Source of the DNA: Kosmotogaceae bacterium | GTDB taxonomy: Bacteria > Thermotogota > Thermotogae > Petrotogales > Kosmotogaceae | Assembly: GCA_016933635.1 (NCBI GenBank) | Contig: JAFGAP010000074.1 | Span: forward strand, 1 to 35,521 | Length of the DNA stretch: 35,521 bases | Reading direction: 5' to 3' | Shown here: positions 13,375 through 26,972 of the stretch, in pieces | Layout: each line of letters opens with the position of its first letter | How positions within the stretch are numbered: the first letter of the stretch is position 1 | Position numbers and translations under genes: made by a program | The notes under the pieces: model-generated | What the model was told of the DNA's origin: nothing | The model's input: the letters and a program-made list of their open reading frames with translations, nothing else | Databases searched by the model: none

Positions 13375-15044
13375 TTCTCCAGAGAGTCTTGGCAGAGATA
13401 TCAGATCTCCCCGGTCAACAACTGAGACAGATATATCAGATAGGTAGAAGCGAGTTCTTCTTCAAATTCTCGAAAAGGGGGATTGAAATCTCTATCGATC
13501 CATCATCGCCCTATATAATTGAGAACAATAGAAATCAGAATTCTCAATCGATTGAGACTCCATTCAGTCTCTTTTTGAGAAGACACATCAACGGCTTCTT
13601 TCTGACGGAAATCGTTCAAATAGATATGGATAGAATAACAAGATTGGATTTTGAAGGTAGAGATGCCTTTGGAGAAAGAAACAGATACTCAGTAATCGCA
13701 GAATTCATTGGACCAGGTTCTAACATCATGATACTTGACGAGGAGAATAGAATACTACAGGTATTCAGAGAGATGATCAGCTCAAAGAGAACTCTCGCCA
13801 GAAATCTGGAGTATTATCCGCCAGAATGTCCAGGGAAATCTCTTAGAGACATGTCTAAAGACAAGATTGTCTCAACGCTCCTTCAATCAACAGATATACT
13901 TTCAAAAGCAACAATGAAGTCGTTTACAGGCTTTTCGAGAGCAACCGCAGAAAATATCGTGGGCTTTTTGCAGACTGAAGATGTTGTTCCAGTCGGTCTA
14001 CGGGAAGAACGTCTTGATGAAGTTGCAGAATTCCTTATGAGCCTTTCTCGGTACACCGACGGAAAATCGCTTTTTGTGATTGAAGGAGCAAAGGGAGTTG
14101 AAATCTCACCCGTACCTCTCGATCATAAAGGCCGTTGCGAAAAGGTAGGAGCCTCGGAAGCTATTAGACGAGCAATACGATCTTCAGGTGCGGAGACAGA
14201 GGTTGAGAGGAGAAAACTGTCAATAGCAAGGAAGATTGACAAATCGTCCAAACGCCTTTTCAAGCTTATCGATAAGCTAGAGACGGAACTGTCGGAAGTC
14301 GAGAATTACAAGGAATTCAGAAAATATGGAGAGCTTATTACCGCAAATCTATACAAACTAAGAGAAAGAAAAGAAACGGTGGAACTTGAGGACTGGGAAA
14401 CAGGAAAAAAAGTCGAAATATCTCTGGACAGTAGGCTAACGCCATCGGAAAACGCCCAGCTTTTCTTCAAGTATTACAGCAAGTCCATGCGCAAGGAGAT
14501 ACAACTAAAGAGAAGGCTAAGAACTCTGCGTGACGAAAGCAACTACCTTGAACAGCTAAAGGAAATGGTTCTTCAGGCAGAATCACTGGAAGACATTCGG
14601 GAGTTCTCTTGTGAACTGGAAGAAGCCGGCATAAAAAGAAAGGACAAGATAGACAAGAAGAGAAAAAAGAGGTCACAGAAATCTGGCCCAAGGGTCTTCG
14701 AAAGAGACGGGTTTAGATTTCTCGTTGGAAGGAACAACATTGAAAACGATGAAATCACTAAGAAGGCCTCAAAGGATGATATCTGGTTTCATGCAAGAGG
14801 CATTCCCGGAGCACATGTTATACTTAAAAAAGCGGGAAGAGAGATCACTCCAGACGCTATTTTCTATGGCTCTCTCCTTGCAGCAAAGTATTCCAGGGGA
14901 AGGCAATCTGGAAAGGTAGATGTAACACATACTGAAGTGCGAAACGTAAAAAAACCAAAAGGAGCTAAACCAGGAATGGTTACATATAGAAAATCCGAAT
15001 CGATTACAGTTGATCTTACGAAAGAGATGGTGGGAAGGGATTGA
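13356..15044 (+). CDS. rqcH: RqcH/NFACT family ribosome quality control factor
   Basis: A 562-residue homologue of bacterial RqcH (Rqc2/NEMF family), also annotated as fibronectin-binding FbpA. Known members bind split 50S subunits with peptidyl-tRNA and drive C-terminal alanine tailing. The NFACT-N domain contains the conserved D92-R93 pair needed for tRNA recruitment (IDMDRITRLDF). A helix-hairpin-helix region lies at about 171-205, coiled-coil segments at about 285-325 and 378-425, with the hallmark PSENAQLFFKYYSK (363-376). The NFACT-R domain follows (IWFHARGIPGAHVIL, 476-490) and the lysine-rich KPKGAKPGMVTY near the end. ATG 13356 is preceded by GAGGAG and overlaps ispE by 19 bases. Confidence 0.94.
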   Translation: MVFDGLILQRVLAEISDLPGQQLRQIYQIGRSEFFFKFSKRGIEISIDPSSPYIIENNRNQNSQSIETPFSLFLRRHINGFFLTEIVQIDMDRITRLDFEGRDAFGERNRYSVIAEFIGPGSNIMILDEENRILQVFREMISSKRTLARNLEYYPPECPGKSLRDMSKDKIVSTLLQSTDILSKATMKSFTGFSRATAENIVGFLQTEDVVPVGLREERLDEVAEFLMSLSRYTDGKSLFVIEGAKGVEISPVPLDHKGRCEKVGASEAIRRAIRSSGAETEVERRKLSIARKIDKSSKRLFKLIDKLETELSEVENYKEFRKYGELITANLYKLRERKETVELEDWETGKKVEISLDSRLTPSENAQLFFKYYSKSMRKEIQLKRRLRTLRDESNYLEQLKEMVLQAESLEDIREFSCELEEAGIKRKDKIDKKRKKRSQKSGPRVFERDGFRFLVGRNNIENDEITKKASKDDIWFHARGIPGAHVILKKAGREITPDAIFYGSLLAAKYSRGRQSGKVDVTHTEVRNVKKPKGAKPGMVTYRKSESITVDLTKEMVGRD

Positions 15045-15961
15045 TAAGACTTCCACCTTATATTTTCTTTTTGGGCGGCTTTTTGACTTACGCCTCGATT
15101 TTTTTCTCGAGTGCTACGGTATCAATGACGATGTCGGTAGTTGGAATGACCATGAGTCTCTACATCTGGTATATTCTCGCATGGAACCGCGATCGTCATC
15201 TTGCCAACATGAAGAGAAAAGGTTACGTGAAACCTCAAAATTCTGCGGAGCAGAGAATCGCAAGCAATTCTCGAATCTGGGTAATTCTTTACTCGGCTTC
15301 ATACTTAACAATGAATTTTGCCGGTCTATACATCATTAAGGCAATTATTGAGAACATCGATATAAGTCTTGATAATATGAGCATGGAAGAGCTGATCACC
15401 TTGCTGGGTAGTGGGTATGTCCTCTCAAGCTGGTTGTTCTTCATAACAGGGATAGCGTCCATTCTTCTTTACGGGAAGCTGATAACAATGTTGTACAACG
15501 ATGAGATGAAGATTCAGTCACTCGAGAGTAAACAAAGAAATATACCTGTCTTGATACTCAAGCCACTTTCTGTAATTATAATGGTGGTCTTCACTCTTAT
15601 CACTTACGGTCTATTCAGCTGGTTCATGAGATATAGGTTGGCCGCAATACAGAGGTTCCATAATCAGATTGAGAAGAAGCTGGATGAGCTCGAAGAGTCA
15701 TTCAAAGAAAAAGCGAAGAATATTAAGAAGGAAAAGGAAGAACGACCATCAAAATCCAGAAGCGAAGAGATTCTTGAGAAGTACTCAAGCAGTCTAGCTT
15801 CTTCTGAAGAAAGCGATGAGAGAAAGGAGATTATCGCTTCTCTCTTCAAAGATCTTGGCAACTTGAAATCAGATCAGGCCAGATCACTTCTTGATGATCT
15901 TCTCTCAAAGCAATTGTTGACGGAGAATGAATTTAACAGACTAACAAGACTCTTAGTTTAG
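15041..15961 (+). CDS. Multi-pass membrane protein with SHOCT-like C-terminal tail
   Basis: A 306-residue protein I cannot name. There are about five hydrophobic segments: two near residues 6-48, one near 78-103, one near 124-146 and one at about 170-195. A charged, coiled-coil-prone cytosolic region follows (about 205-260). The last 25 residues (LLDDLLSKQLLTENEFNRLTRLL) look like a SHOCT-type short C-terminal domain, and a similar tail ends the next protein. The middle GLFSWFMRYRLAAIQRFHNQ recalls DUF4234-type proteins, with low confidence. The start is TTG 15041, overlapping the rqcH stop; the GGAAGGG before it is unusually close. Co-occurrence with rhomboid suggests a joint membrane role, by inference. 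Confidence 0.78.
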   Translation: MIRLPPYIFFLGGFLTYASIFFSSATVSMTMSVVGMTMSLYIWYILAWNRDRHLANMKRKGYVKPQNSAEQRIASNSRIWVILYSASYLTMNFAGLYIIKAIIENIDISLDNMSMEELITLLGSGYVLSSWLFFITGIASILLYGKLITMLYNDEMKIQSLESKQRNIPVLILKPLSVIIMVVFTLITYGLFSWFMRYRLAAIQRFHNQIEKKLDELEESFKEKAKNIKKEKEERPSKSRSEEILEKYSSSLASSEESDERKEIIASLFKDLGNLKSDQARSLLDDLLSKQLLTENEFNRLTRLLV

Positions 15962-15975
15962 CGGGAGGAAGAAAA

Positions 15976-16824
15976 TTGGTCCGATTTAGAAGTGCAACAA
16001 TAACTCTTATAATCATAAACGTAATCGTGTATCTTCTTGTCGCATTTATGGGGCTTTTCACGGGTCCGCAAGGAATAAGCTACCGTGATCTTATAACAGT
16101 CTATGGAGGCGTAAGCAGATTTGCTCTTTCAAACGGTCTGATATATACTCCTCTAACTGCCCTCTTTCTCCATGGCAATTTGATGCACATTCTTTTCAAT
16201 ATGTGGGCGCTTTTCCAGCTCGGACACGTAGTCGAAGGGGTTTATGGAACAAAGTGGTATCTTATATTCTATTTTGTTACTGGAATAGGTGGAAGTCTTA
16301 GCGCCGCAACCTTTTCTAACGCATTCACAATAGGCTCGAGCAGTGCGATTTTTGGTCTGGTTGGAATACTGTTCACTCTTGGGTTGAAAAAAGACACTCC
16401 TGTAATTCTTCGGTCTATTACTGGATACTCCTTGCTACCGATTATACTGATCAACCTCTTTCTAGGATTCAGCATTCCCGGAATAAGTAACGCAGCTCAC
16501 ATAGGAGGTCTTGTTGTCGGAGCTATAATAGGCTGGTTTGCCAAGCCGGCATACGCAAGGTTTGGTCGATCTAGAAGAGTCTACACAAGAGTGAAGGAAA
16601 AGACCCCGGAAGAAGCCTCGCGAGACATTCTAGTCAAGTATATACCGGTCCTTAGCGACATGAAAGGTAGTAGTTCTGAGGAGAGGACTATTAGAATTGC
16701 CCAGCTAAGAAGTGAATTAAGCAGTCTCAAGGACCAGGAGATAGCCTCCAAAGTTCTCTGGGAACTGTATAAAAGGGACCTTCTCTCTCAAGAGGAGTTC
16801 GAAAGACTGAGAAGGTTCCTGTAA
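15976..16824 (+). CDS. Rhomboid family intramembrane serine protease
   Basis: A 282-residue rhomboid. The catalytic serine is S122 in GSSSAIFG (GxSx motif) and its partner is H175 in ISNAAHIGGL. The conserved HxxxN-type motif lies in FLHGNLMHILFNMWAL (H66, H71, N75), which shapes the oxyanion site. About six membrane segments cover residues 8-190. From about residue 200 a cytosolic tail begins and ends in a SHOCT-like element (VLWELYKRDLLSQEEFERLRRFL), matching the tail of the preceding membrane protein. TTG 15976 follows GGGAGG at good distance. It is the last gene of the plus-strand string, with a strong terminator starting just after the stop. Substrates are unknown. Confidence 0.93.
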   Translation: MVRFRSATITLIIINVIVYLLVAFMGLFTGPQGISYRDLITVYGGVSRFALSNGLIYTPLTALFLHGNLMHILFNMWALFQLGHVVEGVYGTKWYLIFYFVTGIGGSLSAATFSNAFTIGSSSAIFGLVGILFTLGLKKDTPVILRSITGYSLLPIILINLFLGFSIPGISNAAHIGGLVVGAIIGWFAKPAYARFGRSRRVYTRVKEKTPEEASRDILVKYIPVLSDMKGSSSEERTIRIAQLRSELSSLKDQEIASKVLWELYKRDLLSQEEFERLRRFL

Positions 16825-19099: not shown

Positions 19100-20302
19100 T
19101 TACCTTCCTCCTACTCCAAGCAAAACATAAGCATCATACTTAGCCGGATAGAATCTATTCTCTGACAGGGAATCTATCAGCGCATAGTAATAATCAAGTC
19201 CTCCGAAGCTGGAAGTCAATATTACAAAGGGCCTGTGATAGATATGCGCCTTTGAGAAGAGCTCTCTAATTTCTGAGTCTTTCGAATTTATGAATAGATA
19301 TGTATCTCGATTTTCAATGCCGGATATATTTGGTACAAGACCCGTGGCATCTACTTTCACTCCTGCCTTAGCAAGCCACTGATTTTTTATTATTTCGGCG
19401 AAATCTCCAAATCTTTCCGCATAGTCGGGAATATTGTTTATCACTAGAATCTTCGGTGACTTGCTTTCTATTTCGACTGCTTCAGGTTCATCGCTGCCGG
19501 GACCGGTCGGAACTATCTGACCCTCATCATCGATGTAGTAATCTATCTGTGTAAAACTTACAGACTTCTTACCTGTAAAGAAACCAACTGCAAAGTCGGT
19601 GAGAGTCTTCTTGTCTACGCTGATATCTGTCTTTTCAAGCACGAAATCTATCATTTCTATTATCTTCGACGGCCCTGCACTAACAAGATTTCGGATTAGC
19701 TGTTCCAGCACTCGTTTCTGTCTATCGATCCGACCAAGGTCACCCGAATCTGAGCCTCTGTAGCGAAGAAATTTCAGCAGATCTTCACCTTCTAGAAAAT
19801 GAGTGCCAGCTTCGAAATGTATATGAAGGCCCTGTTGGAAATCATCGTGATGCATCGGAGAGGTAACTTCAACACGAATAGGACCGGTAAACGTCGTTAT
19901 TTCGGTCACAGTATTGAAATCAACAACAACGGAACCCGTTATCGTTCTACCGGTAAGCTTTTCCACTTCCTCGATAAGCGCCTCTATCCCGAAGGAGTTG
20001 TAGAGAGAATTGATCTTTCTCTTCTCCGATCTGTAAGTTACTACAGTGTCTCTGGGGATGCTCTTCAACAAGAGGCCCCCGGAAGTGCGAAAATATACAA
20101 TCGAGATATAATCTGTTCTTCCACCAACTGCGTCCCTTGAGTTTCCGCCGGAATCTATTCCTACGACCAGGAAACTCTCTGTAGCAAGATCTCTTTCCGA
20201 GAAAGAGTAATAAGCGTCCCTGAAAATCAGAAAAGCCAGAAAGAAAAAGAGAAACACTTGTAGCACAGTCAAAGCCACAAGTAAAAGATGAACAGACTTC
20301 AT
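19100..20302 (-). CDS. LytR-CpsA-Psr (LCP) family protein with LytR_C domain
   Basis: A 400-residue membrane-anchored protein: one N-terminal membrane segment (about 6-27), then an extracytoplasmic LCP domain. Its catalytic features are intact: GIDSGG (49-54), GRTD (61-64), SIPRDT (81-86) and the arginine-rich stretch from LRYRGSDSG to GRIDRQ (179-195). In Gram-positive bacteria such enzymes transfer lipid-linked glycopolymers to peptidoglycan. The C-terminal region (about 305-400, starting KILVINNIPDYAERFGDFA) fits the LytR_C domain. The start ATG 20302 overlaps the stop of the upstream gene by one base (TAATG), so the two are translationally coupled. The glycopolymer in this lineage is unknown. 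Confidence 0.9.
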   Translation of the reverse strand: MKSVHLLLVALTVLQVFLFFFLAFLIFRDAYYSFSERDLATESFLVVGIDSGGNSRDAVGGRTDYISIVYFRTSGGLLLKSIPRDTVVTYRSEKRKINSLYNSFGIEALIEEVEKLTGRTITGSVVVDFNTVTEITTFTGPIRVEVTSPMHHDDFQQGLHIHFEAGTHFLEGEDLLKFLRYRGSDSGDLGRIDRQKRVLEQLIRNLVSAGPSKIIEMIDFVLEKTDISVDKKTLTDFAVGFFTGKKSVSFTQIDYYIDDEGQIVPTGPGSDEPEAVEIESKSPKILVINNIPDYAERFGDFAEIIKNQWLAKAGVKVDATGLVPNISGIENRDTYLFINSKDSEIRELFSKAHIYHRPFVILTSSFGGLDYYYALIDSLSENRFYPAKYDAYVLLGVGGR

Positions 20303-21012
20303 TAGTCTGCCAGTGCCTTCTTTACTGTCTCCAGTGAATCAGGTTTGAGATACAGTCTTGAAACAGTTTCGCCTCCAACTCCCACTGAGATTTTCATCGG
20401 GAACTCAGTTAATGTTTCCAGCTTATAGGTCATCCTCGATGAATTCCCAAGACGTCTCAGTAGAACAGCGATTCCTTCAGACGTCAATATAGAGGCACTG
20501 TCGTACTTCTTAACGGTCTGAGTGAACCCATTGATCTTCCAGTAATCAAATAACTTAAACCCTCGCAAAGCCATAGCGTCAATGAGTTCAATAGGATTCG
20601 AAGCATCGACCCCTAGTTTCGAAGAAAGAGCATCGATCAAGTCGGGAGTGAAATTGACGTAGTAAGAGAAATCACCTGCAGTACCAAGCCAGCTCTGAAC
20701 CGCTCCAACGGCATCTGCTCCAAGTTGCGGATCTAGAACCTCTTTCGAGTTCTCAATTGTGGCAAAAACCGGGAATATCACCAGAGATGTTCTGCCCACA
20801 GTCGTAGTCCTTACATAGTAATAAAGAGGATCGTCCGCGGACTGCCAGTAGAAGAGATAATCTACATACTCTGCCTTCATCTCATCGCTGTTATTGACCC
20901 CATTCACTATAAAATACACATAACCTGCACCCGCTACAACGACGAGTACTATCACCAGAATTAGCCACAACAGCTTTGGACCACGTCGTCTCTTGGGCTT
21001 AATTAAAGACAT
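20302..21012 (-). CDS. Single-pass membrane protein, LCP-like fold without catalytic motif (inferred)
   Basis: A 236-residue protein with a basic start (SLIKPKRRRGPK), one membrane segment (about 14-36) and an extracytoplasmic domain. By eye it tracks the neighbouring LCP protein: YVRTTTVGRTSLVIFPVFATI here against YFRTSGGLLLKSIPRDTVV there, then a helix, then FSYYVNFTPDLIDALSSKLG against GSVVVDFNTVTEITTFTG, then LTSEGIAVLLRRL against LEGEDLLKFLRYR. The catalytic RD of IPRDT and the downstream arginines are not conserved. I infer a degenerate LCP relative, perhaps a partner of the true enzyme. The start is ATG 21012, six bases after GGAGGTG; a further upstream ATG reads through this site. It overlaps yqeK by 14 bases. 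Confidence 0.75.
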   Translation of the reverse strand: MSLIKPKRRRGPKLLWLILVIVLVVVAGAGYVYFIVNGVNNSDEMKAEYVDYLFYWQSADDPLYYYVRTTTVGRTSLVIFPVFATIENSKEVLDPQLGADAVGAVQSWLGTAGDFSYYVNFTPDLIDALSSKLGVDASNPIELIDAMALRGFKLFDYWKINGFTQTVKKYDSASILTSEGIAVLLRRLGNSSRMTYKLETLTEFPMKISVGVGGETVSRLYLKPDSLETVKKALAD

Positions 21013-21592
21013 GACTGGCACCTCCATGTAATTCATTCCATATCCACACAGTCTCGGGAAGCAAGAGACTGCCCGACTTAACGGCCCATGTTATTTTCAA
21101 TCTTATCACGTCAACAAATGTTTTTTCTAGATCTACTTCTGCAGTTTCGCGAATATGAAGGGCTTCGGAAAAGGCTCTTCCTTCTTCACCAATATCTGAA
21201 ATCATCAGAATCTTTCCTGTTGTACTCATACCTGGAATCCCGCTTATGTGCCAGTAAACTGCCTGAAAGACATCGCCCTCTACTCCGTATTCCTCTCTGA
21301 GATAAAGCGCAGCAACTTTTCCGTGGAGAAGGACAGGTGCAACCCTCTCTATTTCAGTCGTGTCAATCCCGAAGAAAATAGCTAGTCTCATCAGTTCGTC
21401 TTCTGCTTGGTCTCTAAACATATCATGTGAAACGGCAGCAAGAACAACTCCTGAAGAATCGATACCATGAAAACTGCTTATTCTCTTTGCGAGTCTTTCC
21501 ACTCCCAATATATGCTCGTATCTTTCCGGCGAGCACATTGACTTTGCCTTAATGCGAACTTCTCTAGTTACCGTATCGTACTCTGTAATCAA
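20999..21592 (-). CDS. yqeK: YqeK-type HD-domain Ap4A hydrolase
   Basis: A 197-residue HD-superfamily protein. Metal ligands and family motifs are in order: RYEH (24-27), SHD (55-57), LLHG (88-91), YWHISGIPGM (113-122) and ISDI with D133, followed by GRAF. YqeK proteins cleave diadenosine tetraphosphate symmetrically to two ADP. Usual neighbours are NadD and RsfS, which are absent here; the gene instead leads into the LCP pair. TTG 21592 is supported by GAGGT five bases upstream; an internal ATG at residue 19 is an alternative. It overlaps the upstream gene by 29 bases. Confidence 0.9.
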   Translation of the reverse strand: MITEYDTVTREVRIKAKSMCSPERYEHILGVERLAKRISSFHGIDSSGVVLAAVSHDMFRDQAEDELMRLAIFFGIDTTEIERVAPVLLHGKVAALYLREEYGVEGDVFQAVYWHISGIPGMSTTGKILMISDIGEEGRAFSEALHIRETAEVDLEKTFVDVIRLKITWAVKSGSLLLPETVWIWNELHGGASHVFN

Positions 21593-25286: not shown

Positions 25287-26960
25287 CTATTTACGCGACC
25301 CGGTTATTATTACGGGAAGAGAGGGAACCCCTGAGGACGGAGAGTTGATTATTTCTCCATTCACAGACATCACCGATGACTTGCCACCATCAAGACACAT
25401 CAGAGATTCAAATCCCTTGTCTTTAAAGAATTCTATCATCTCTTTGAAAGTTAAGCCATAGCTACTATGCTGGTATCCATCGATTACTATGAATACTACT
25501 TCTCCAGTTTCTTTTATTCCAACAAGCGTCCTCGGCGCTCTGACATCCAACAGAGATGCCGAATAGTAGTTCTGCTCATAATCAGTGACTGGTCTCCCAT
25601 TATGAATTATCATAGGTCCACCCTCAACCGCTCCGGCGATTTTCACGCCATATGAATTCAAGAGCTCAAATGAGATTGGTCTTCCAATAAAATCAGTATC
25701 TCCGATTTTCTGCAATGATGATGGTGAAAGAACCAGCAAATCAGTATCCTTTTCCACCTTAGAAGAGAAGCCCTTCTTCACTATCCTTCCATCCTTTACT
25801 ACCAGATAAGTGAAGTCATCGAACTCTGGAATGCTGTTACGGTATTCATCGGTGTACAGCACCGCTTCACCCCTGTATGGAGAATTAACACCCGTAATCT
25901 GAACAAACCGATCATTGAATTTTGCGAGGTATAATATATCCATCCTCGCAACATATGTTTTTCCATCTTCAGTGAAATACACAGCCGGTCTTCCCAAGCT
26001 TGGAAGACCTAATACTTTCCCATTTCGAACAAGAAAACCAATGGGGAGGTTTTGATTCTGGTCGAAGTAACCACCGTTTATCATGATCTCTGAACCGCTT
26101 TCTCGCAGAAGATCAGTTGCCTTTTCAAGGCCACCAATACCATTGTTCGCAAGCTGAATCTCAAAAGAAAAGCTGGAGCCGATCATTTCAAGGTAAGACA
26201 TAGCGAATTTCTGACCACCCGCGTAGGATTCAAAAACATTCAAATTGAAATCCGCGCTCGTTTCCTGCTCTATCGTTCTCCCTATGCCACTTTTTCCCAT
26301 GAGAGTGAGGGTTCTTCCTGTAATCTCATATTCTACGTCTGACCAGGGTTTCTCTACTGATATCTTTACAAACCCCCTTCCCGTGGCCACTGTAATTCCT
26401 TCTGCATCCAGGAAAGGATCGATTCTAGCTGGCTTCAACGTCAAAACCAGTGAACCGCTTCCTGTCCACCAGACAGTGAAGAAATCCGGCAAAACATCTC
26501 TATCTAGAGTAACTGAAATAGATTCAGGCCTATTTACAATGCTTTTTATCGTTACGGGCTGAGCGTAAAGTATCAGCGCTTCAGTCTCGCTGAAGAAGGA
26601 TTTGTCGGTAATTGCGGCAAGCAGCTCGGCATTAATGTATACCATGCCATCCTTAAGGATCATCGAGTTGTCAAATTCACTTCCAAATTCCACGGTTGCT
26701 CTTTTTGTCTCGTGAGATAGAGAGACGATTATACCCGAAGGAAGAATCATTATTGTCTCTTCCTGACGAAGTGATTGAGAGACAACTACTCCTCTTATCA
26801 GCTCACCGATAATATCAAGCTTCACAAAATCCATAGATCTTTCAATCACAACCGAATTGGTAAAGACCCTCGTCTGCCCTCTTTCATCCAGATATATTAG
26901 ATTCTTTGCTGATAAGACCAGTGAAATGAGAAGAAAACAAATAAAGATAATGCGTTTCAT
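25287..26960 (-). CDS. Exported phosphodiester glycosidase family (NAGPA/DUF2233) protein
   Basis: A 557-residue protein with a signal peptide (MKRIIFICFLLISLVLSA). The N-terminal half (to about 260) is beta-rich and resembles AMIN or copper-amine-oxidase-like envelope modules, with low confidence. The C-terminal half is the NAGPA/DUF2233 domain: NGGYFDQNQNLPIGF, GRPAVYFTEDG, ITGVNSPYRGEAVLYT, VEGGPMIIHNG, RAPRTLVGI and CLDGGKSSVM. Relatives remove N-acetylglucosamine from phosphodiesters or act on envelope glycans. ATG 26960 is chosen, as AAGGAG lies eight bases ahead; GTG 26969 abuts that site. Its stop is 28 bases before the EF-G paralogue. The substrate is unknown. Confidence 0.87.
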   Translation of the reverse strand: MKRIIFICFLLISLVLSAKNLIYLDERGQTRVFTNSVVIERSMDFVKLDIIGELIRGVVVSQSLRQEETIMILPSGIIVSLSHETKRATVEFGSEFDNSMILKDGMVYINAELLAAITDKSFFSETEALILYAQPVTIKSIVNRPESISVTLDRDVLPDFFTVWWTGSGSLVLTLKPARIDPFLDAEGITVATGRGFVKISVEKPWSDVEYEITGRTLTLMGKSGIGRTIEQETSADFNLNVFESYAGGQKFAMSYLEMIGSSFSFEIQLANNGIGGLEKATDLLRESGSEIMINGGYFDQNQNLPIGFLVRNGKVLGLPSLGRPAVYFTEDGKTYVARMDILYLAKFNDRFVQITGVNSPYRGEAVLYTDEYRNSIPEFDDFTYLVVKDGRIVKKGFSSKVEKDTDLLVLSPSSLQKIGDTDFIGRPISFELLNSYGVKIAGAVEGGPMIIHNGRPVTDYEQNYYSASLLDVRAPRTLVGIKETGEVVFIVIDGYQHSSYGLTFKEMIEFFKDKGFESLMCLDGGKSSVMSVNGEIINSPSSGVPSLPVIITGSRK

Positions 26961-26972
26961 ATACTGCACTCC

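Follow-up and report, generated by a model that had tools for sequence, protein, structure and literature searches.

Most work on the LytR-CpsA-Psr (LCP) ligases has dealt with Gram-positive bacteria, and with these proteins as stand-alone enzymes or self-oligomers. In a Kosmotogaceae bacterium of the phylum Thermotogota the gene of such an enzyme directly follows that of a membrane protein of 236 amino acids, here called X, for which profile searches found no Pfam or NCBIfam family, the only matches being transmembrane noise. The question is whether X is a relative of the LCP proteins and, if so, what an LCP relative with most of the catalytic residues missing might do at the side of an intact enzyme.

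The yqeK-X-LCP Locus

The window, by which we mean the whole stretch of 35,521 nucleotides that was analyzed (contig JAFGAP010000074.1 of assembly GCA_016933635.1), contains the genes yqeK, X and LCP in this order, all on the minus strand. The upstream neighbor of X, yqeK (20999-21592, minus), encodes a member of the HD-domain Ap4A hydrolase family (TIGR00488 above the cut-off) and overlaps with X (20302-21012, minus) by 14 bases. The stop codon of X and the start codon of LCP (19100-20302, minus) have one base in common, in the TAATG at 20300-20304 (minus). This overlap, noted in the original prediction, was confirmed, as were the coordinates, lengths (236 and 400 amino acids) and strand of the two genes. 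Judged by the overlap, the two genes may be expressed equally, as the prediction suggested.

X is predicted to be a single-pass membrane protein with a putatively LCP-like, catalytically degenerate ectodomain. The transmembrane segment (20905-20973, minus; residues about 14-36) is preceded by the basic stretch KPKRRRGPK; hydropathy has its maximum (2.83) at residues 14-32 and reaches nothing similar beyond residue 50. A transmembrane-like segment at the N-terminus was found by hydropathy in 66 of 67 X homologues. From the basic N-terminus, read by the positive-inside rule, we infer that the ectodomain (20305-20886, minus; residues 43-236), which is the part that aligns with the LCP core over 168 hhalign columns, is extracytoplasmic. 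With this orientation X would have the topology of the LCP proteins, namely one N-terminal transmembrane helix followed by an extracytoplasmic domain.

The Catalytic LCP Protein

LCP proteins of Thermotogae are already known (PMC2632651). The one encoded next to X is an LCP family glycopolymer transferase of 400 amino acids (PF03816, E = 2e-28; TIGR00350, E = 1.6e-25), whose relatives with solved structures in the PDB are TagV, MsrR, TagU and TagT. It is the sole PF03816 match in the source genome assembly, which is 80% complete. As in a catalytic member of the family, its PF03816 domain scores above the cut-off and the active-site set is complete: every position is intact in the catalytic domain (19685-20119, minus; residues 62-206). 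The PRD motif has its Arg and Asp in 61 of 61 LCP proteins, and D50 and D64, the predicted Mg-binding pair, are invariant in the Thermotogota.

The protein also has a C-terminal extension (19103-19450, minus; residues about 285-400) that is conserved in the phylum, has no match in Pfam and resembles LytR_C by eye only; it could be a further partner-binding module. Some genomes of family f10 (G050, G073-G076, G081 and G082; loci L103 and L105) contain a second, more Firmicutes-like LCP protein that is devoid of this extension, which fits a report of an F1b-type LCP protein in Fervidobacterium nodosum (PMC2632651).

Probable Relationship of X to the LCP Proteins

The PF03816 profile matched neither X nor any of 44 X homologues, the LytR_C domain had no match in X, and a PDB profile search with X revealed no relative. 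Two family profiles were therefore compared with hhalign, one built from 67 X and the other from 62 Thermotogota LCP sequences, with the ectodomain of X alone and columns defined by the 50% rule. They aligned over the 168 colinear columns with a probability of 61.6-70.3% (P = 4-8e-5), which is below the usual standard of 90-95%. This value varies with the way in which the alignment is set up, dropping to 6-18% when columns are defined by the master sequence, and an early comparison of 44 X with 34 LCP sequences had given a probability of 4%.

The score of 35.7 for X versus LCP compares with at most 15.6 for reversed profiles, at most 22.4 for 200 column shuffles and at most 26.6 for four decoy families; 25 unrelated-family controls scored far lower. 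Among 27 gene families clustered from these loci, no other family matched X nearly as well as LCP did, and apart from LCP itself none matched LCP nearly as well as X did. Plasmid records supplied 12 LCP proteins from outside the Thermotogota, belonging to Bacillota, Actinomycetota, Deinococcota and Pseudomonadota; aligned with these, X yielded an hhalign probability of 50% with a P of 1.6e-4, and the register was the one seen with the Thermotogota proteins. No X gene was found on plasmids.

The original prediction had placed X ...RTSLVIFPVFATI over LCP ...LLLKSIPRDTVV, and hhalign independently recovered this register. The claimed similarity between the two proteins turned out to be specific and colinear at the profile level, with most catalytic positions missing in X. 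A lack of LCP matches in profile searches had been named in the prediction as a result that would speak against it; plain Pfam and PDB profile searches indeed produced no match, which refutes it in part, and the match came from profile-profile comparison only.

AlphaFold modeling of X with only two sequences yielded a pLDDT of 39.6, which says nothing against the alpha-beta-alpha fold of the LCP proteins because the true LCP protein, modeled with three sequences as a positive control, came out just as badly (34.3). Taken by its sequence, the case for a remote relationship of X to LCP at the profile level is good but not conclusive.

Active-Site Positions in X

In the LCP protein Cps2A the lipid phosphate is held by R267, R362 and R374, three arginines that are in turn stabilized by D371 and Q378; the Mg ligands are D234 and D246 (PMC7831098). 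In LcpA from A. oris the exchange R149A abolishes activity (PMC6381275). In our reading, which is based on spacing, the Cps2A positions correspond to those discussed here (for example, D234 and D246 to D50 and D64).

The active-site map of X was drawn from the columns aligned with the Thermotogota LCP proteins. At the site of the catalytic PRD, X has PVF (residues 81-83; 20764-20772, minus): the proline is found in 44 of 67 homologues, and the columns of Arg and Asp contain mixed residues, neither of the two being conserved. This confirms that X has lost the catalytic RD, as predicted. A PRD-like string in six X proteins had looked like an intact motif; it sits at another position and was rejected. 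Of the RxR...GDxGRxxRQ stretch X has kept only R182, the second Arg of RxR, as R150, and D188, the Asp of GDxGR, as D156 (R150 to D156; 20545-20565, minus). R150 is Arg in 51 and D156 is Asp in 54 of the 67 proteins, and they are the most conserved charged residues in the middle of X. Missing are the KIN asparagine, the first arginine in RxR and, in GRxxRQ, both arginines and the glutamine. The downstream arginines, all of which had been predicted to be lost, are gone together with the Gln except for the second RxR arginine, and the active-site Asp of DxGR is likewise retained.

Some 25 LCP positions, including one strand and the substrate loop, are without counterpart in X. An Asp pair for Mg binding was not found: within residues 40-90 of X the share of homologues with Asp exceeds 36% in no column, and D50 and D64 of LCP fall just outside the part aligned by hhalign. 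Because most of the active-site positions are lost, X is very probably not a phosphotransferase, and pyrophosphatase activity is likewise predicted to be absent; it may have kept part of a ligand site.

Distribution and Gene Order in the Thermotogota

X homologues are present in nearly all Thermotogota genomes examined. Of 103 genomes 88 contain both X and LCP, 12 neither, two X only and one LCP only, the three discordant ones being draft assemblies in 150-390 contigs. Of the 12 genomes without X and LCP, ten belong to a single family-level clade, f5 (G040, G046, G052, G055, G057, G059 and G061-G064), and the joint absence therefore counts as about one evolutionary event rather than ten. A Fisher value computed from the counts takes no account of this and is disregarded.

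The f5 genomes, which are MAGs, have retained yqeK. They have no full-length CsaB-type pyruvyltransferase, which nearly all other genomes have; such CsaB matches as they have are weak and confined to profile positions 91-276. The absence of LCP, X and full-length CsaB in the presence of yqeK and usually of an SLH-domain protein suggests that the envelope is anchored differently in f5. SLH-domain proteins, found in 99 of the 103 genomes, were considered as a marker for the LCP pathway and rejected, since they also occur in most of the clade that is without LCP.

Wherever X and LCP are adjacent (families f1, f2, f4 and f6-f9), the distance between them is -35 to +21 bp. In several genera of f2 and f4 X lies beside LCP and yqeK elsewhere. 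In f3, f10 and f11 it is X and yqeK that are neighbors, with LCP elsewhere in the genome. The Thermotogales likewise contain X and have lost the adjacency, the LCP gene being located elsewhere in the genome. In four loci of the Thermotogales type from several families (L094, L099, L109 and L110) LCP has moved to the side of an endonuclease V-like gene and X has stayed at yqeK. Judged by co-occurrence and by the tight junction where the genes are adjacent, the pairing of X with LCP, which had been noticed in this one contig, is conserved across the phylum.

A record of the clostridial Monoglobus has the gene order nadD-yqeK-LCP-rsfS without X. Because of this order it is reasonable to assume that X probably arose from a duplicate of the LCP gene inserted into an ancestral yqeK-LCP context.

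Selection and Co-variation

X is under purifying selection: between close genomes its dN/dS is 0.06-0.17, within the range of LCP and yqeK. The distance matrices of X and LCP, given RpoB, correlate with 0.63 (reached in none of 2000 permutations), a value that is supportive only, the entries of such matrices not being independent data points. The corresponding correlations given RpoB are 0.41 for X and yqeK and 0.46 for LCP and yqeK. When the respective third gene is taken into account in addition to RpoB, the partial correlation is 0.55 for X and LCP and 0.17 for X and yqeK.

Proposed Function of X

We propose, with a probability of roughly 60%, that X is an ancient, divergent and catalytically degenerate LCP-like protein of the Thermotogota and acts as a partner dedicated to the single catalytic LCP ligase. 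The features of the sequence that speak for this are the one N-terminal membrane anchor, the remote kinship with LCP at the profile level, the absence of most catalytic residues, the strong conservation, and the linkage and co-occurrence with LCP. In the inner membrane X and LCP would be immediate neighbors and associate into a hetero-oligomer, a contact that linkage, co-occurrence and distance correlation support indirectly. X itself would transfer no phosphate; it would stabilize, place or regulate the LCP enzyme at the nascent peptidoglycan or, alternatively, help to hold the polyprenyl-linked glycopolymer. The Mg-dependent transfer to peptidoglycan would be performed by LCP. This would yield a glycopolymer linked to the wall, plausibly a pyruvylated polymer bound by the SLH-domain proteins of the toga; a pyruvylated substrate is suggested by the joint absence of LCP/X and CsaB. 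The holding of the outer sheath in the Thermotogota is attributed to wall-located SLH-domain proteins (PMC3387000), and a link of X to the toga is conceivable on this basis.

In the Thermotogota the LCP enzyme may thus function as a unit of two proteins. Tentative, and by our estimate somewhat doubtful, is the farther-reaching proposal that the whole phylum runs its wall-glycopolymer ligase as an obligate pair of enzyme and pseudo-enzyme of the same fold, an undescribed type of partner, and needs it for the polymer that tethers the toga.

X could instead be a membrane accessory that is likewise dedicated to the LCP ligase and has an unrelated fold, the similarity coming from the alternation of strands and helices and from composition. 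An unrelated fold would agree with the lack of a family-level match to Pfam and PDB profiles, with a profile probability of only 50-70% and with the strand and substrate loop for which X has no equivalent. We nevertheless regard it as unlikely, since the X-LCP score is reached neither with other families nor with reversed or column-shuffled profiles, the independent set of LCP proteins gives the same register, and the conserved R150 and D156 come to lie on the active-site residues R182 and D188. The conservation of just these two active-site residues would also suit an LCP-like protein that uses them as a ligand site and acts alone, without contact to LCP, for example by binding the polyprenyl-phosphate-linked glycan or the product undecaprenyl phosphate. 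The great distance between the two genes in the Thermotogales would agree with such independence. It is quite improbable in view of the fact that the presence of X tracks that of LCP and that the genes are tightly coupled outside the Thermotogales, although both facts would still allow X to act in the pathway of LCP without touching the enzyme.

Very improbable indeed is a functional tie of X to YqeK and hence to nucleotide metabolism, with LCP next to X merely by chance of gene order. The adjacency of yqeK and X does persist in the Thermotogales after LCP has moved off. Against such a tie, the f5 clade has yqeK and neither X nor LCP, X stays with LCP in several genera that have yqeK elsewhere, the topology of X, in the positive-inside reading, puts it outside the cytoplasm, and the partial correlation of X is 0.17 with yqeK as compared to 0.55 with LCP.

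The dedicated LCP-like partner that we favor can be compared with three known types of protein. The LCP ligases (PF03816; TagT/TagU/TagV, MsrR, Cps2A and LcpA from A. oris) resemble X in topology, in the colinear match of the core profile, in the yqeK gene context (yqeK-LCP-rsfS in Clostridia) and in the active-site columns on which R150 and D156 fall. They differ in that X is without Arg and Asp of PRD, without RxxRQ, without the Asn of KIN, without a conserved Asp at the site of the Mg pair and without about 25 residues of the substrate loop and a strand, and is below detection by PF03816.

VirR (Rv0431), a membrane protein from Mycobacterium tuberculosis that has no catalytic domain, binds to canonical LCP ligases, for which it has been proposed to act as a scaffold (PMC11832169). 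X, too, appears to be membrane anchored and, by its sequence, non-catalytic, and it is by analogy that a role as partner is assigned to it: X may stabilize, place or regulate the LCP enzyme as VirR is proposed to do. VirR, however, is a protein of another phylum with a LytR_C domain and no LCP domain, whereas X resembles the LCP core and has no match to LytR_C. In actinobacterial LCP proteins such as LcpA from C. glutamicum, LytR_C is a non-catalytic module for which a supporting role in the oligomerization of LCP has been proposed (PMC7831098). There the module is fused to the enzyme, whereas X is encoded by a separate gene and the Thermotogota LCP protein has a C-terminal extension of its own.

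In a literature search that covered mainly freely accessible papers, we found no paper on an inactive LCP homologue as partner. If a conserved inactive homologue does act in this way, it would be a second way of controlling polymer attachment, and this in a diderm phylum. The proposal would also give a function to a family that is present in almost every Thermotogota genome and lies outside all Pfam and NCBIfam models.

Other Genes in the Window

Near the LCP operon a gene at 25287-26969 (minus) encodes an exported protein of 560 amino acids, the C-terminal end of which resembles by eye a phosphodiester glycosidase of the NAGPA type. A membrane protein (15041-15961, plus) and the adjoining rhomboid protease (15976-16824, plus) have similar C-terminal tails of about 60 residues, as if a single tail had been copied into both neighbors; the tail of the rhomboid protease has a weak match to SHOCT (E = 0.007).
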